Positions 11,676 to 16,753 of a stretch of 64,000 nt of DNA are shown one piece after another. Source of the stretch: Shinella yambaruensis (GTDB lineage Bacteria; Pseudomonadota; Alphaproteobacteria; Rhizobiales; Rhizobiaceae); NCBI RefSeq assembly GCF_022899355.1, contig NZ_JALJCK010000008.1:62001-126000 (forward strand), given 5' to 3'. The notes beneath the pieces are model-generated. The model made no database searches. It saw only the letters and a program-made list of their open reading frames with translations, and was not told the origin of the DNA. The number at the start of each line of letters is the position of its first letter. Position 1 is the first letter of the stretch. The position numbers and the translations under genes are program-made.

Positions 11676-11773
11676 AGTTTGTCAGGAAAAGTGGGAGCCG
11701 GTTTTCCCGAAGAGACAAACGAAAACAAAGAAACCGAGAATCTGTCTGGTTCAGAATGAACCTGAAAGATTCT
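11676..11773. repeat. Rhizobiaceae-type intergenic repeat with two nested hairpins
   Basis: First hairpin: TTTGTC (11678-11683)/GACAAA (11714-11719) with inner GGAAAA/TTTTCC. Second: AGAATCT (11737-11743)/AGATTCT (11767-11773) with inner GGTTCA/TGAACC. It fills the gap between convergent genes and may terminate both. I recall this sequence as a frequent rhizobial repeat; only one copy is in the window. Confidence 0.65.
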
Positions 11774-12788
11774 AGGGCCGCACGCTCTTGCGCCAGGCGA
11801 CCTGCGTCGGCAGGCGCTTGGGCGGGGCGGGGTCGGCCTCGTCCTTCTCGATGATGGAGACGATATGGTCGGCGATCTCGCCGATCGGCTGGCGGAAGGT
11901 GGTGAGGTTGTAGCCGATCCAGCCGGCCTGCGGGATGTCGTCGAAGCCGACGACGCAGAGCGCCTCGGGGATGTCGAGGCGGAATTCCAGCCGCGCCACG
12001 TCCATGAAGCCGAGCGCCAGCAGGTCGGTGACGCAGAACACGCCGTCCGGCCGGCCGGAGGCGCCGAGCAGCTGGCGGGCGCCTTCCGCGCCGGTCGCGT
12101 AGCTGGTCGGCCCGGCACGGCTGACCTGCGCTTCGAGACCGAGCTCGGCGGCAGCGGCGACGAAGGATTGCTCGCGCGTCACGATGCTCGGCGTGCCCGC
12201 CGTCGAGCTGACCACGGCAAGGCGCCGGCAGCCGGCCCGGTGCAGCATGAGGCAGGCCTCGCGCGCCGCGCTCTCATTGTCCACCAGCACGATCTCCGGC
12301 CCCTCGATCGGGTCGTCGCGGTTGATGAGGATGACGCGCTGGCCGTTCTCGATGCAGGTCTCGATCAGCGAGACGGGCGGCGCGCCGGACACCACCACCG
12401 TGGCGTCGGCGCGGTAGTTCAGCGTCTGGCGCAGCGCCGCCTCGACATTGTCCGGCTGGCCGGCCGTGTTCAGCACCATGACCACCTTGCCGATCGCCTG
12501 CAGCTTGCGCGTGGTGACCTCCACCACATTGGAGTGGAAGGGCGCCTGCAGCTCCGCCACGATCATGCAGACGATGCCGGACCGGTGATGGATCAGCCCG
12601 CGCGCCAGGTGGTTGACGTGGTAGCCGAGCTTTTCCGCCGCCGCGAGCACCTTGGCGCGCGTCGCCGGCGAAACGCTGGCCCCGTCGGTGAAGGTGCGCG
12701 AGACGGCCGAGCGCGAGACGCCCGCGAGCTCGGCCACGCGAATGGCGCTGACCGAGGCCTTTTTCGGCCTGGACCTGGATGTCGTCAC
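11772..12788 (-). CDS. LacI-family transcriptional regulator
   Basis: 338 residues from GTG 12788. The helix-turn-helix (SAIRVAELAGVSRSAVSRTF, about residues 12-31) and hinge are followed by a periplasmic-binding-protein-like ligand domain. GTG is preferred over ATG 12818 because AGGCAGG lies 5 nt before it. Convergent with the phosphatase operon and divergent from the amidohydrolase gene at 13010. Two copies of the TGCACGGCTGTGCA-type palindrome lie upstream of it and two lie before the transporter operon at 4386, so it probably controls that operon and itself. Confidence 0.9.
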   Translation of the reverse strand: MTTSRSRPKKASVSAIRVAELAGVSRSAVSRTFTDGASVSPATRAKVLAAAEKLGYHVNHLARGLIHHRSGIVCMIVAELQAPFHSNVVEVTTRKLQAIGKVVMVLNTAGQPDNVEAALRQTLNYRADATVVVSGAPPVSLIETCIENGQRVILINRDDPIEGPEIVLVDNESAAREACLMLHRAGCRRLAVVSSTAGTPSIVTREQSFVAAAAELGLEAQVSRAGPTSYATGAEGARQLLGASGRPDGVFCVTDLLALGFMDVARLEFRLDIPEALCVVGFDDIPQAGWIGYNLTTFRQPIGEIADHIVSIIEKDEADPAPPKRLPTQVAWRKSVRP

Positions 12789-12839
12789 GTCTTCCTGCCT
12801 CCGGATGCGTTTGTGCATACTTGCGCATACTCTTCGCCC

Positions 12840-12856
12840 TGTGCAAAGCCGCAGCG
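12840..12856. promoter_or_regulatory. Operator-like palindrome, copy 4 (degenerate)
   Basis: TGTGCAAAGCCGCAGCG shares GCAAAGCCG with the reverse complement of copy 2. About 50 bp upstream of the lacI start codon, consistent with autoregulation. Confidence 0.35.
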
Positions 12857-12930
12857 TTATGAATTTCCCCGGAAAAGCGTGAAATCGCGGGATCGCACCG
12901 CCATTCCCACCATCGGTCCCGCGCCGGATT

Positions 12931-12946
12931 TCGCACGGCTGTGCAA
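12931..12946. promoter_or_regulatory. Operator-like palindrome, copy 3
   Basis: TCGCACGGCTGTGCAA; the core GCACGGCTGTGC is identical to copy 1. It lies between the divergent lacI gene and the amidohydrolase gene, so it may also bring the 13.0-16.75 kb module under this regulator. Confidence 0.5.
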
Positions 12947-13009
12947 GCAGCTCTCCGCCGACCGGCGGGCGGCAAGGGAACCCGAATCCGTCTTTCGCGT
13001 TATGGCTGC

Positions 13010-13843
13010 ATGACGGACCTGATCGAGAACGATGGACGGCGGGAAGGGGCGCTCTGGAGCGTTGCACGCGGCCAGTCGCCGATCATCGGCACCGCCATTC
13101 ACGACGGCCACCTGCTGCGCAGCGACCTTGCGGCACGCATGAAGCTCGACGCCGCCGGCCGGCTGCGCGAGGAGGACCCTTTCACCGCCGCCTTCATCGA
13201 AGATATTGGCAACCGGATCGTCGTCCACCGTTCGCGCTTCGAGGTGGACCTGAACCGGCAGCGCGAGGGCGCCGTCTATCTGCGCCCGGAACAGGCCTGG
13301 GGCCTCGACATCTGGGCCGAGCCGCCCGGCCAGGAGGCGCTGGAGACGCTGCTTGCCCAGCACGACGGCTACTATGCCATGCTGAAGGCCGTGCTTTTGG
13401 ACATGGAGCGTGCGCATGGCCGCTTCGTCCTCCTCGACATGCACAGCTACAACCATCGCCGGGCCGGCCCCGACGGGCCGCCGACCGCGCAGGCGGAGGC
13501 GCCGGACATCAATATCGGCACCTTCTCCATGGACAGGGCGTTCTGGGCGCCGGTGGTCGATGCCTTCATGGCCTGTCTGCGCGAGCAGCCGTTCCCCGGC
13601 CGGCAGCTCGACGTCCGGGAAAACGTCGCCTTTGCCGGCAAGGGCGAGCAGACGCGCTTCGTGCACCAGCATTTCCCTGGCCGCGGCTGCGCCATCGCCG
13701 TGGAGTTCAAGAAGATCTTCATGGACGAGTGGACGGGCGCGCCGGACCGGGAGGCGATCGATGCCTTTCGCGCCGCCATCCGCGCCAGCCTGCCGGTGCT
13801 CGAAGGCGCTCTCCGGGCCATGCCGGGCGGGGACGGGCCATGA
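13010..13843 (+). CDS. N-formylglutamate amidohydrolase-like protein
   Basis: 277 residues. HutG2/FGase-family features are visible: IHDGHLL near residue 30, a metal-site DMHSYNHR around 143-148, DINIGT and VEFKKIFMDEWTG. The family releases glutamate from N-formylglutamate in histidine breakdown, but no hut gene is near. Instead it is coupled by ATGA to a DUF1704 metallopeptidase-like gene and then to an ATP-grasp ligase, so it more likely deacylates a product of that module (inference). No strong ribosome-binding site precedes ATG 13010. Confidence 0.8.
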   Translation: MTDLIENDGRREGALWSVARGQSPIIGTAIHDGHLLRSDLAARMKLDAAGRLREEDPFTAAFIEDIGNRIVVHRSRFEVDLNRQREGAVYLRPEQAWGLDIWAEPPGQEALETLLAQHDGYYAMLKAVLLDMERAHGRFVLLDMHSYNHRRAGPDGPPTAQAEAPDINIGTFSMDRAFWAPVVDAFMACLREQPFPGRQLDVRENVAFAGKGEQTRFVHQHFPGRGCAIAVEFKKIFMDEWTGAPDREAIDAFRAAIRASLPVLEGALRAMPGGDGP

Positions 13844-15693
13844 GCGGGCGTGCCCGCAAGGCGGCGGACCCGCTCGCCGCGGTCGCCGCCGCGCTGGAGC
13901 GCGGCCTTCCCGTCCGGCTCGACCTGCCGCGCCGCGGCCGGCTCCACCTCGATCGCCCGCTGCCGTTTCTCGCCGTGCATGTGAACCGGCGCTCGGCTCC
14001 CGCCGCCCGCGCGGCCACCATGGCCAATGCCGCCTATCTCCTGGCCGGAAACCTCTCCGACGCCGCGGCCATCGTGCGCCTCGTCGGTGAACGGATGCGC
14101 GAGGAATTCGGCGCCTTCCTCGTGCTCGATTTCGGTGAGCTTGCACGCGACCAGTTGGCCGCGGACACGCCCTATCTCGCGCCCTTCGAGATCAGCGTCT
14201 CGGCCTCGCCCGATGCGGCGGCGGAGCGTGCGCAGTCGGCCTTCGTCGGTGCGGTGGAGAAGATCGACGGCCGCTACCGCGCGCCGCGCATCGCACGGCC
14301 GACGCTTGCCGAGGACCCCCATGCGGGCCTTGCCCGGCGCCTGCCGGATATCCCGACGCTCACCGTGCGCGTCGCGCCGATCTACCGGGTGCCGACCTCG
14401 CGCGCCGTCTATCCCGAGCTGCAGGGCCGGCTGGTCGCCCACCTGGTCGATGCCGGGCTGCGTGCGGCAAGCCAGTTCGCCCGCGCCGAGACGGCGCTGG
14501 CGCCCGCCACCCACCGGGCGCTCGGCCGGCGCGTCTTCGTCGAGGCGGTGACCCGCGCCGACCGTGCCATGGACGATATCGCCGCCAGCTTCGATTTCCT
14601 GCTCGCGGTGACACCGATCAATGCCGATGCTGCCTTCGAAGCCTTCCGCGCGGCCGGCTGCGAGCGCGCGCCGACCTTTCTCTACCGCCCGCTCGCCATC
14701 GACATCGCCGCGCGCAAGAAGGCGCTGTTCTCCATTGACCTCGACCGGTTCGAGGATCCGGTGCTGGAACGGCTCTACGGCGAAAAGCAGCAGGAGCTGG
14801 ACCTGCAGCTCTCCATGCTCGCCGCCCGCGAGGATGCCCGCTTCGTCGAGATGAGCCGGGCGCTCTACGGCTCCGTCGACGGCCGGCTGGCGAAGGTCGC
14901 CGGCGATATCCTGGAGGCGACCGCGAAACCCGGCCGCAAGGCCGCCCCGCAGGAGGTGGACCATCGCTATGTCGAGCGGCGGGCGCGCGCGATGATCGAC
15001 CGCTACAGCGCGCAGTTCTCCGCCTTCGCGCCGAGCGTCGAGGTGCGCAACGACCTTCCGCCCGGGCTGATGGTGTCGAGCGACCGGCTGCTGATCGCCC
15101 GCACCACGACGATGGCGCGCGAGCGGGTCGAGGCGCTGCTGAGCCACGAGGTCGGCGTGCATCTCCTCACCTATTGCAACGGCTCCGGCCACGGGCTGCG
15201 GCTCTTCCGTTCCGGTCTCGCCGGCTACGAGGGGGCGCAGGAGGGGCTGGCGGTGCTGGCGGAATATCTCGTCGGCGGCATGACGACGGCCCGCCTCCGG
15301 CTGATCGCCGCGCGGGTGGTCGCCTGCGCCGCCATGCTCGACGGGGCGGGTTTCGTGGAGACCTACCGGCTGCTGGTGCGAGAGCATGGCTTTGCCCCGT
15401 CCGGCGCCTTCAACATCGCGCTTCGCCTCCACCGCGGCGGCGGGCTTGCCAAGGATGCGGTCTACCTGCGCGGCCTCCTGGAAATCCTCGCGCATCTGCG
15501 CGGCGGCGGCGATCTCGAGCCGTTCTGGCTCGGCAAGATCGCGGCCCGCCACTTCGCCGTCATGCAGGAGCTCAGCCTGCGCGGCCTGCTCAAGGCGCCG
15601 CGCCTGACGCCGCAATTCCTGACCGCCAAGGGCGCGCAGGAGCGCCTTGCCCGGCTGCGCGCCGGCCTTTCACCCCTCGATCTCATCGCCTGA
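13840..15693 (+). CDS. DUF1704 'QEGLA motif' protein, predicted zinc carboxypeptidase
   Basis: 617 residues. It has the family signature QEGLA at 467-471 and an HExxxH metal site (HEVGVH, 436-441); Glu468 is well placed as third ligand. Pipelines call the family 'flavohemoglobin expression-modulating QEGLA motif protein', a name with little functional content. Eukaryotic DUF1704 relatives (MATCAP/TMCP) are tubulin tyrosine carboxypeptidases, so a bacterial carboxypeptidase that trims a C-terminal residue is a reasonable prediction. No signal peptide is seen. It overlaps the amidohydrolase by 4 nt, and its stop overlaps the ribosome-binding site (GAGGAGG) of the ATP-grasp gene. Confidence 0.85.
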   Translation: MSGRARKAADPLAAVAAALERGLPVRLDLPRRGRLHLDRPLPFLAVHVNRRSAPAARAATMANAAYLLAGNLSDAAAIVRLVGERMREEFGAFLVLDFGELARDQLAADTPYLAPFEISVSASPDAAAERAQSAFVGAVEKIDGRYRAPRIARPTLAEDPHAGLARRLPDIPTLTVRVAPIYRVPTSRAVYPELQGRLVAHLVDAGLRAASQFARAETALAPATHRALGRRVFVEAVTRADRAMDDIAASFDFLLAVTPINADAAFEAFRAAGCERAPTFLYRPLAIDIAARKKALFSIDLDRFEDPVLERLYGEKQQELDLQLSMLAAREDARFVEMSRALYGSVDGRLAKVAGDILEATAKPGRKAAPQEVDHRYVERRARAMIDRYSAQFSAFAPSVEVRNDLPPGLMVSSDRLLIARTTTMARERVEALLSHEVGVHLLTYCNGSGHGLRLFRSGLAGYEGAQEGLAVLAEYLVGGMTTARLRLIAARVVACAAMLDGAGFVETYRLLVREHGFAPSGAFNIALRLHRGGGLAKDAVYLRGLLEILAHLRGGGDLEPFWLGKIAARHFAVMQELSLRGLLKAPRLTPQFLTAKGAQERLARLRAGLSPLDLIA

Positions 15694-15703
15694 GGAGGCT
15701 CTC

Positions 15704-16753
15704 ATGCGCATCGCTTTCTTCGTCAACTCGATCGCCGACGAAACCCCGCAGTTCACCACGACGACGCTGGCGCTCGCCGCGCTCAACCGCGGCCACGAGA
15801 TTTGCTACGTCACGCCCGGCGATTTCGTGCTGCGCGCGGATGACAGCCTTGCCGTGCGCGGGCTGGTGCTGCCCTCCTCGGGCTACAAGAAGCCGGAGAC
15901 GCTGCACAAGGACCTGCAGGGGGAGAATACCGAGACGCGCATCTTCGACGTCGCGGAGATCGACGTCCTGTTCCTGCGCAACGACCCCTCGCTCGACGTG
16001 ACGGACCGGCCCTGGGCGGCCCATGCCGGGGCGCTGTTCGGGCGGCTTGCGGCGCTGCGGGGCACCCTGGTCGTCAACGATCCGGCCGGCCTCGCCAAGG
16101 CGCAGAACAAGCTCTACCTGCAGGATTTCCCGCCCTCCGTGCGCCCGGCCACGCTGGTCTCCAAGAGCATCGAGGAGATCCGCGGCTTCATCGCCGGGGA
16201 GAAGAAAAAGGGGGCGATCATCAAGCCCTTGCAGGGTTCGGGCGGCAAGAACGTCTTCAAGGTCGCCTCGCCCGACGACCAGAACCTCAACCAGATCTTC
16301 GAGGCGGTGAGCGGCGAGGGCTATCTCATCGCCCAGAGCTTCATGCCGGAGGCGAGCGAGGGCGACGTACGCTTCTTCGTGATGAACGGCCGGCCGCTGA
16401 TGCGCGACGGCAAATACGCCGCCTTCCGCCGCGTGCCGGCCAAGGGCGAGATCCGCTCCAACGTGCATGTCGGCGGCGGGCCGGTGCCGGTGGAGGTGAC
16501 GCCCGCCATGCTCGCCGTCGTCGAGGCGGTACGCCCGAAGCTCGTCGAGGACGGCATGTTCCTCGTCGGCCTCGACATCGTCGGCGACAAGATCCTGGAG
16601 ATCAACGTCTTCACGCCGGGCGGGCTCGGCAATCTGGCGCAGCTCTACGAGACCAACTTCTCCGACACGGTCATCGCCGCGCTGGAGGACAAGATCGCCA
16701 TGCGCGCGGCCTATGGCGGCCGGCTGGACAACAGCCGGCTCGCCACGCTGTGA
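15704..16753 (+). CDS. Glutathione-synthetase-like ATP-grasp ligase
   Basis: 349 residues. ATP-grasp features: KPLQGSGGKNVF (about residue 175), the adenine-side YLIAQSFMPEA, a DVRFFV strand, and Mg ligands in VGDKILEINVFTPGG. The N-terminal domain matches the glutathione synthetase substrate domain. GshB is usually near 310-320 residues and lies elsewhere in rhizobial genomes, so this is probably a paralogue joining a carboxylate to an amino acid or peptide. Its tight link to a carboxypeptidase-like and an amidohydrolase-like gene suggests a make-and-break cycle for an amide bond (inference). Confidence 0.85.
   Translation: MRIAFFVNSIADETPQFTTTTLALAALNRGHEICYVTPGDFVLRADDSLAVRGLVLPSSGYKKPETLHKDLQGENTETRIFDVAEIDVLFLRNDPSLDVTDRPWAAHAGALFGRLAALRGTLVVNDPAGLAKAQNKLYLQDFPPSVRPATLVSKSIEEIRGFIAGEKKKGAIIKPLQGSGGKNVFKVASPDDQNLNQIFEAVSGEGYLIAQSFMPEASEGDVRFFVMNGRPLMRDGKYAAFRRVPAKGEIRSNVHVGGGPVPVEVTPAMLAVVEAVRPKLVEDGMFLVGLDIVGDKILEINVFTPGGLGNLAQLYETNFSDTVIAALEDKIAMRAAYGGRLDNSRLATL

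Follow-up and report, generated by a model that had tools for sequence, protein, structure and literature searches.

The window analysed here, a stretch of 64,000 nucleotides from Shinella yambaruensis (contig NZ_JALJCK010000008.1, positions 62,001 to 126,000), contains three consecutive genes, termed FG, DU and GR (Table 1). The preliminary description had presented them as overlapping genes for an N-formylglutamate amidohydrolase (FGase)-like protein, a DUF1704 protein and a glutathione synthetase-like ATP-grasp ligase. The three family names were borne out, with scores above the cut-offs of PF05013, PF08014 and PF02955, respectively. The overlap was found for FG and DU, whose end and start share the ATGA at positions 13840-13843, whereas DU and GR do not overlap and are separated by 10 bases. 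A near-identical plasmid of Shinella sp. WSC3-e also carries FG-DU-GR, annotated there as N-formylglutamate amidohydrolase, flavohemoglobin expression-modulating QEGLA motif protein and glutathione synthetase. As described before, no hut or gsh gene was present among the flanking genes scanned with Pfam and NCBIfam or among the annotated genes around the WSC3-e plasmid cassette. PADLOC models for anti-phage defence matched none of the three proteins at E values up to 0.01, and a reading of the trio as a defence system was dropped on these grounds. In a scan of positions 12780-13060, 5' of FG, for a LacI operator, the only elements returned were an inverted repeat of 10 bases, spaced by 18 bases, and a palindrome of 9 bases.

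Table 1 Positions of the three genes and of their domains and motifs in the window.
Feature	Position	Strand	Description
FG	13010..13843	+	N-formylglutamate amidohydrolase-like metal hydrolase, 277 aa
DU	13840..15693	+	DUF1704/MATCAP protein, long form, 617 aa
N-terminal FGase-like domain of DU	13909..14499	+	residues ~24-220, metal ligands mostly lost
MATCAP domain of DU	14599..15690	+	gluzincin carboxypeptidase-like, residues 254-617
HEVGVH	15145..15162	+	predicted metal-binding/catalytic HExxxH, residues 436-441; aligned with HEIGTH of 7z5g
QEGLA	15238..15252	+	E468 is the predicted third metal ligand, residues 467-471; aligned with EEGLA of 7z5g
GR	15704..16753	+	ATP-grasp ligase, PRK12458/NF009110 subfamily, GshB-like, 349 aa
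C-terminal tail of GR	16730..16750	+	conserved N-x-x-[LM]-A-T-L, here NSRLATL

FG scores 85.9 bits against PF05013 (Pfam) and only 28 bits against the HutG equivalog TIGR02017 (NCBIfam, cut-off 278.75). A role in histidine utilisation was dropped, as this score lies far below the HutG cut-off. FG further differs from HutG in motifs of its own (REEDPFT, DMHSYNHRR and EFKKxFMDEW), and no hut gene was seen beside it. In the alignment, the presumed metal-site residues H31, D56 and H145 are retained. A fold search placed FG in the FGase fold and returned the M14 carboxypeptidase fold, including the tubulin deglutamylase CCP5, as a weak relative; searching PDB sequences with FG, a profile search included, gave no relevant match. 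Besides FG, the S. yambaruensis genome contains six further FGase matches.

DU scores 309.3 bits against PF08014 (Pfam, cut-off 27) and 355 bits against TIGR02421 (NCBIfam, cut-off 338.65). The structure model of the protein reached a pLDDT of 90.2 and a pTM of 0.73, and the predicted fold of the C-terminal domain matches human MATCAP (KIAA0895L). Both the HEVGVH and the QEGLA motif were found exactly where the preliminary description had placed them. H436, E437 and H441 as well as Q467, E468 and G469 are invariant in all 37 aligned long members, and the sequence alignment with 7z5g and the fold alignment with human MATCAP agree on H436, H441 and E468 as predicted ligands of what may be a single metal site. 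DU shares approximately 20 percent identity with MATCAP/TMCP (PF08014), from which it differs by the additional FGase-like domain at its N-terminus and by its location in a bacterial operon with a ligase; a tubulin target is known for MATCAP/TMCP. The FGase-like domain was present in eight of eight other long forms of DU and in none of 16 short forms. This domain is a mostly metal-less relative of FG: the position equivalent to H145 is occupied by Gly instead of a metal-binding His in the DU of the window, and across 22 N-domains it is Gly in eight, His in three (all Luteimonas), Asp in three, Trp in three, Ser in two, Tyr in two and Ile in one.

GR scores 163.6 bits against PF02955 (Pfam) and 457.7 bits against PRK12458/NF009110, above a cut-off of 408 that two cassette-bearing class members miss with 404.3 and 377.2. 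Its scores remain below both glutathione synthase equivalogs (TIGR01380, 197.9 versus 299.05 bits; NF003573, 206.8 versus 272 bits) and below RimK TIGR00768 (59.5 versus 143.4 bits), and it matches 1gsa at an E value of 2.7e-34. The residues K136, K174, R223, R243, D291, E299 and N301 are invariant in 25 of 25 sequences, the GshB of the genome included. GR resembles GshB in its ATP-grasp family and key residues, but scores under the equivalog cut-offs, has a longer C-terminus and coexists with a GshB-type gene elsewhere: a different contig of the same genome, C29, holds the better GshB-type match, at 246.2 bits against PF02955. Ordinary glutathione synthesis by GR was dropped in view of the two missed cut-offs and this second match. 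The C-terminus of GR extends approximately 18 residues beyond that of the genome's GshB, which lacks the conserved tail. In 100 sequences the tail carries N at position -7 in 99, A at -3 in 95 and L at -1 in 92, and 99 end in the same final alignment column; for the 98 distinct sequences the counts are 97, 93 and 90. From Alphaproteobacteria to Planctomycetota the tail is kept to the last residue. As judged from the alignments, both GR and FG retain their predicted catalytic residues. The FGase-like domain of DU and the tail of GR did not feature in the preliminary description.

A survey of gene neighbourhoods, set beforehand as a test of the preliminary description, confirmed that the linkage of the three families is conserved. 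The order FG-DU-GR was found in 96 of 104 loci, a set including two pairs with identical sequence and one short form. FG and DU overlap in 74 of 97 cases, and DU and GR lie at most 20 bases apart in 93 of 97. Among the best 80 contig loci, in which Gemmatimonadota, Myxococcales and Poribacteria are represented and of which the one from Planctomycetota is devoid of FG, all three proteins are encoded in 79, in 78 of them by separate genes in the order FG-DU-GR, and one locus (L167) carries an FG-GR fusion. Searches for DU and GR in 151 genomes of the family identified DU in 14 and GR over the cut-off in the same 14, with both genes adjacent in every case. In a phylum sample of 200 genomes the long form of DU was found in six and GR in seven, the extra GR genome (G109) being cut by a contig start, and in a class sample both occurred in the same three of 289 genomes. 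Protein distances of FG, DU and GR correlate with r values of 0.90-0.95, calculated without a control gene. Exceptions were also seen: L171 is devoid of FG, and L055 shows no FG in the 2.7 kb up to the contig end. At L052, DU stands without FG or GR and next to an AstE/AspA-type hydrolase, in a genome (G093) that also has a full cassette (L053). One genome (G557) harbors a second copy of GR distant from DU, and GR can therefore exist alone. Conservation of the trio across phyla excludes chance, and FG-DU-GR recurs as a fixed unit in distantly related bacteria.

No fixed fourth gene was seen among the top 40 neighbour clusters within 6 kb, as surveyed with a crude gene caller that favoured an antisense ORF over DU in the window. 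The widest cluster comprised 29 loci, at variable distance and on either strand, and a fixed fourth gene or regulator was dropped as a candidate because the neighbours vary between loci. A conserved fourth gene is thus likely absent, and the trio looks complete.

We propose, with a probability of about 0.5, that FG, DU and GR constitute a self-contained set of enzymes by which an amide bond on a carboxylate is both formed and hydrolysed. Such a unit probably attaches a small chemical cap to some target and takes it off again. GR would use ATP to convert the carboxylate of a peptide-like substrate into an acyl phosphate, the activation known from glutathione synthetase, before coupling it with an amine or an amino acid. 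DU would contribute its MATCAP domain, a predicted gluzincin with the HExxxH...E signature, for the removal of a C-terminal residue, and FG would hydrolyse the amide of an N-acyl amino acid. The N-domain of DU may pair with FG and thereby keep both hydrolases and the ligase together; this putative pairing draws on the homology of the N-domain to FG. The computed basis of the proposal comprises the coupling and co-occurrence of the genes, the single fusion of FG with GR, the predicted folds, the retained catalytic residues and the relation of the N-domain to FG. We infer from it that the trio acts on one substrate and in which direction each reaction runs; the ligase and the hydrolases may instead act on different molecules. 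DU would be a putative carboxypeptidase in this scheme and may instead be an endo- or aminopeptidase. If the unit works as proposed, the chances that its substrate is a small (acyl-)peptide are close to even, and a protein C-terminus would be possible at clearly lower odds. The family ties of GR to glutathione synthetase and of FG to N-acyl amino acid hydrolases point to a small peptide at least as much as to a protein. To our knowledge, no activity is known for any member of the trio.

A serious contender, although we rate it somewhat below even odds, is a small-metabolite cassette in which GR builds an acylated di- or tripeptide, such as a redox peptide or an osmolyte, which DU and FG dismantle for recycling of its amino acids. 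GR is nearer to glutathione synthetase than to RimK by the scores given above, and characterised FGase relatives act on small N-acyl amino acids. The NAGGN operon of Pseudomonas, named after the osmoprotectant N-acetylglutaminylglutamine amide, is described as an osmotically induced set of dipeptide-forming Ngg, the asparagine synthase-like amidotransferase AsnO and a peptidase (PMC8070244). Like this small operon, the cassette combines a peptide-forming enzyme with a peptidase, but it contains neither an acetyltransferase nor an amidotransferase. The NAGGN enzymes and the cassette have at most the ATP-grasp fold in common. MscS-type genes lie 0.1-0.2 kb 3' of GR in L163 and L170 (Luteimonas), in L169 (Poribacteria) and, at a distance of 0.9 kb, in L165 (Gemmatimonadota); such genes are common, however, and others lie kilobases away in the same loci. 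In a table on a low-salinity transcriptome of Photobacterium damselae, a QEGLA protein of either long or short form is tabled with a value of 27.51, or 4.78 in log2 (PMC10308900). These osmotic hints derive from few lineages or from neighbours without a background rate, and the known eukaryotic relatives of DU work on protein tails. The latter would fit an editing of protein C-termini, which we consider rather unlikely: GR would add one or more residues and DU, together with FG, would remove them, comparable to tubulin tyrosination or to RimK/RimB acting on ribosomal protein S6. The match of the C-terminal domain of DU to KIAA0895L favours this reading, as KIAA0895L and KIAA0895 (TMCP1 and TMCP2) cut C-terminal Tyr and Glu from tubulin (PMC10499314). 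RimB is reported to reverse the glutamylation by RimK in vitro, and Rlo genes for an ATP-grasp protein and a protease lie in a shared operon (PMC12239564). The cassette likewise encodes an ATP-grasp protein and a protease in one operon, yet its protease is a gluzincin and not a retropepsin, its ligase is GshB-like and it has an extra FGase. Downstream of GR, the loci L053, L056 and L059 carry RloA-, RloB- and RloC-like genes, but all three loci belong to a single genus, and the families were named for L053 only. The closer relation of GR to glutathione synthetase than to RimK speaks against protein editing, and the neighbour survey linked no candidate target protein to the cassette. Predicted amidoligase-peptidase systems were reportedly described by Iyer, Aravind and colleagues in 2009 and share with the cassette the general theme of a clustered ATP-grasp ligase and peptidase. 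The tubulin tyrosination parallel of the preliminary description holds at the superfamily level only, as TTL-type ligases are ATP-grasp proteins, MATCAP has the fold of DU and the M14 fold of CCP5 is weakly related to FG; the earlier interpretation as a whole is partly supported.

An accessory glutathione pathway, with GR as a second glutathione synthetase and DU and FG degrading glutathione-like or gamma-glutamyl peptides, would agree with the NCBI name of GR and with the key ATP-grasp residues of GshB that it keeps. We regard it as improbable. A separate GshB-type match occurs in all 14 GR-bearing family genomes, and 149 of the 151 family genomes have one at an E value of 7e-46 or better, G541 and G612 showing weak ones only. 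GR also falls under the equivalog cut-offs, carries a tail unlike the genome's GshB and is distributed as DU is. Least probable of all appears a purely catabolic operon, in which FG and DU would break down external N-acylated peptides and GR would reuse the products incidentally. ABC transporter, LacI-type and MFS genes near the Shinella cassette would suit such a role, but none of them is constant in other genomes, and the ligase is kept where FG was not found (L055, L171).

Within the proposed make-and-break unit, the tail of GR could conceivably form a self-editing code, an idea to which we attach only a slim chance. The MATCAP domain would dock to the tail or use it as a substrate, trimming or re-extension of the tail would switch GR, and the pseudoenzyme domain of DU, paired with FG, would gate access. 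If true, bacterial MATCAP-ligase pairs would independently parallel the editing of tubulin tails in eukaryotes and might even be its ancestor. The flavohemoglobin-related name of bacterial DUF1704 proteins fails to explain the context of the trio, and their relatives in humans, reported in 2022-2023, are peptidases that act on tubulin tails. As a portable trio present in easily grown rhizobia, the cassette links one branch of DUF1704 to a particular ligase and a particular hydrolase, and the FG-like domain within the peptidase and the conserved tail of the ligase offer concrete structural handles. No description of the trio was found in the literature searched, which included few subscription papers and not the amidoligase survey of 2009. 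COG3930 occurs in a Vibrio vulnificus genome paper.

The N-formylglutamate-amidohydrolase-like protein (FG), the long-form DUF1704/MATCAP protein (DU) and the GshB-like ATP-grasp ligase (GR) very likely form a functional unit. An ATGA is common to the end of FG and the start of DU, and 10 bases separate DU from GR. The DU motifs HEVGVH (436-441) and QEGLA (467-471) lie exactly where the preliminary description had placed them. The window's contig comprises 348,706 bases within a 6.87 Mb genome, and its best plasmid match is peSHIWSC3 of Shinella sp. WSC3-e (348,572 bases; DU 99.7% identity over 96% of length). This plasmid carries the trio in identical gene order, annotated as N-formylglutamate amidohydrolase, flavohemoglobin expression-modulating QEGLA motif protein and glutathione synthetase.

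Features of the window and of the surveyed loci (L) and sampled genomes (G)
Feature	Position	Strand	Basis or remark
FG	13010-13843	+	ORF and domain matches
DU	13840-15693	+	ORF and domain matches
GR	15704-16753	+	ORF and domain matches
LacI-type regulator gene	11772-12788	-	end taken from annotated plasmid copy
Antisense open frame	13447-15615	-	722 codons, over most of DU
FG-GR fusion	L167:7915-9879	+	single frame
DUF1704 with AstE/AspA-type gene	L052:11361-12410	-	
Insertion between FG and DU	L048:6195-10472		
Insertion between FG and DU	L057:9378-14118		
Second NF009110 gene	G557:C2:2322623-2323660		over cut-off, away from DU
16 short-form loci	L045-L047, L049-L051, L054, L058, L060-L062, L064-L067, L070		different DUF1704

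GC-rich relatives repeatedly show such long antisense frames, apparently a compositional effect.

PF08014 was present in 18/200 phylum, 8/289 class, 14/151 family and 13/21 genus genomes, the window's genome being included in each. Using the FG, DU and GR proteins, we surveyed the neighbourhoods of 39 of the 41 further PF08014 occurrences that the phylum, class and genus samples contained; G062 and G146, both with short-type PF08014 scores, were omitted. All 12 loci from other genus members contained the three genes in the window's order. Beyond the genus, the complete trio was found in the same order at L044, L048, L053, L057, L068 and L069. DU and GR occurred without FG at L055, L056 and L059, of which the latter two lie at contig edges; the L055 contig extends only 2.7 kb upstream of DU. 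L063 is a fragment at a contig edge, and L052 has DU without FG and GR. At L052, the long DUF1704 gene adjoins an AstE/AspA-type desuccinylase/aspartoacylase in their place, possibly one acyl-amino-acid hydrolase substituted by another; the same genome holds a complete cassette at L053. The insertions consist of a response-regulator-like ORF (judged by eye) plus a Cytidylate_kin2 protein at L048, and of a CDP-alcohol phosphatidyltransferase-like protein at L057.

Neither FG nor GR was detected at E 1e-4 in any of the 16 short-form loci, some of which are close to contig ends. Their DUF1704 proteins span 425-456 residues in 12 cases, with open frames of 482-702 in L045, L046 and L058 and a frame split in two in L070. 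Searching with a profile built from the DU N-domain (A5) gave matches in 8/8 long loci tried, none of which had contributed to the profile, and in 0/16 short-form loci.

When 84,980 named species genomes were scanned using the long-form alignment, at least 591 stretches were obtained, 580 of these encoding a relative. The best 80 of at least 580 relatives were kept and are thus the closest among those obtained rather than a random sample. Of these 80, 79 encode the complete trio, 78 of them as separate genes in FG-DU-GR order. L171 (Planctomycetota MAG) is without FG, and L167 (Myxococcales MAG) has a 654-residue FG-GR frame with GR starting at residue 308 after a lysine-rich linker, the sole fusion among the loci surveyed. 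With these 80 included, tblastn at 1e-20 gave a DU match in 104 pooled loci, among them one short form (L067) and two pairs of duplicates. The trio lies on one strand in 97/104, in standard order in 96; L052, L055, L056, L059, L063, L067 and L171 fall short of it. Among the 97 complete loci, 74 have overlapping FG and DU genes, and DU-GR spacing is at most 20 bases in 93. The preliminary description had staked its proposal on linkage of the three families in other genomes, and a conserved trio was indeed found across samples and phyla.

Genome-wide, when the family sample was searched for DU and GR, the GR model NF009110 scored over cut-off in exactly the 14 of 151 genomes with PF08014, and its gene adjoined DU in all 14. 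Each of these 14 contains a further GshB-type match. As ordinary GshB would lead one to expect, such matches reach E 7e-46 or better in 149/151 family genomes; G541 and G612 have only weak ones. Of the phylum genomes, 7/200 matched NF009110 at E 1e-100 or better, namely all six with a long DU and G109, in which GR begins at base 48 of a contig. The class sample gave 3/289 at this threshold, the same three with long DU, two of them scoring under the curated cut-off. As the genomes are related, these counts are given without a probability. The second PRK12458-type ligase of G557, with no DUF1704 gene beside it, is the sole clear orphan GR among the sampled genomes.

An ATP-dependent ligase together with two metal hydrolases, one MATCAP-like, would most simply form and cleave an amide bond on a carboxylate. 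Kinship of GR to glutathione synthetase and of FG to N-formylglutamate hydrolase favours a small peptide as putative substrate, for which the NAGGN operon, as outlined in excerpts of PMC8070244, would be a precedent. Kinship of DU to MATCAP (excerpts of PMC10499314) and the RimK/RimB precedent (excerpts of PMC12239564) instead favour a protein tail. No published account of the trio was found among the matches listed, the search lying outside most subscription literature.

The window GR reaches about 18 residues beyond the C-terminus of the same genome's GshB, ending in NSRLATL. Among 100 GR sequences that retain their stop codon (L160, truncated at a contig end, was excluded from 101), many from close rhizobial relatives, we counted N(-7) in 99, L/M(-4) in 97, A(-3) in 95, T(-2) in 83 and L(-1) in 92, and the final residue occupies the same alignment column in 99. 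The 98 distinct sequences gave 97, 95, 93, 82 and 90, respectively. Loci from Gemmatimonadota, Myxococcales, Poribacteria, Planctomycetota, Luteimonas and Sphingomonas keep the tail as well, some residues at -4 to -1 being replaced; the C-terminus of FG showed no comparable conservation over the full range of loci. This conservation could be structural, and it is of note given that the neighbouring DU is a predicted C-terminal exopeptidase.

No fixed fourth gene appeared among the top 40 neighbour clusters listed within 6 kb of the cassette, as called by a crude gene caller that preferred an antisense ORF over DU in the window; a conserved fourth gene is likely, not certainly, absent. The LacI-type gene runs divergently from FG across a gap of about 220 bases, and its relatives within 6 kb of the cassette come from only four genera among the clusters listed. 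A scan of 12780-13060 revealed no clear operator upstream of FG. Three same-strand genes follow GR at L053, L056 and L059 (one genus). At L053 they encode an RloA-like retropepsin, an RloB-like transglutaminase-7TM protein and an ATP-grasp protein related to RimK; the RloA-like and RloB-like proteins score under the named Rlo cut-offs. At L163, L170 (Luteimonas) and L169, an MscS-type gene is located 0.1-0.2 kb downstream of GR; at L165 the distance is 0.9 kb. A table excerpted from a low-salinity transcriptome paper (PMC10308900) gives 27.51 (log2 4.78) for a Photobacterium damselae QEGLA protein. Together, these genes downstream of GR and this value hint at osmotic or envelope stress.
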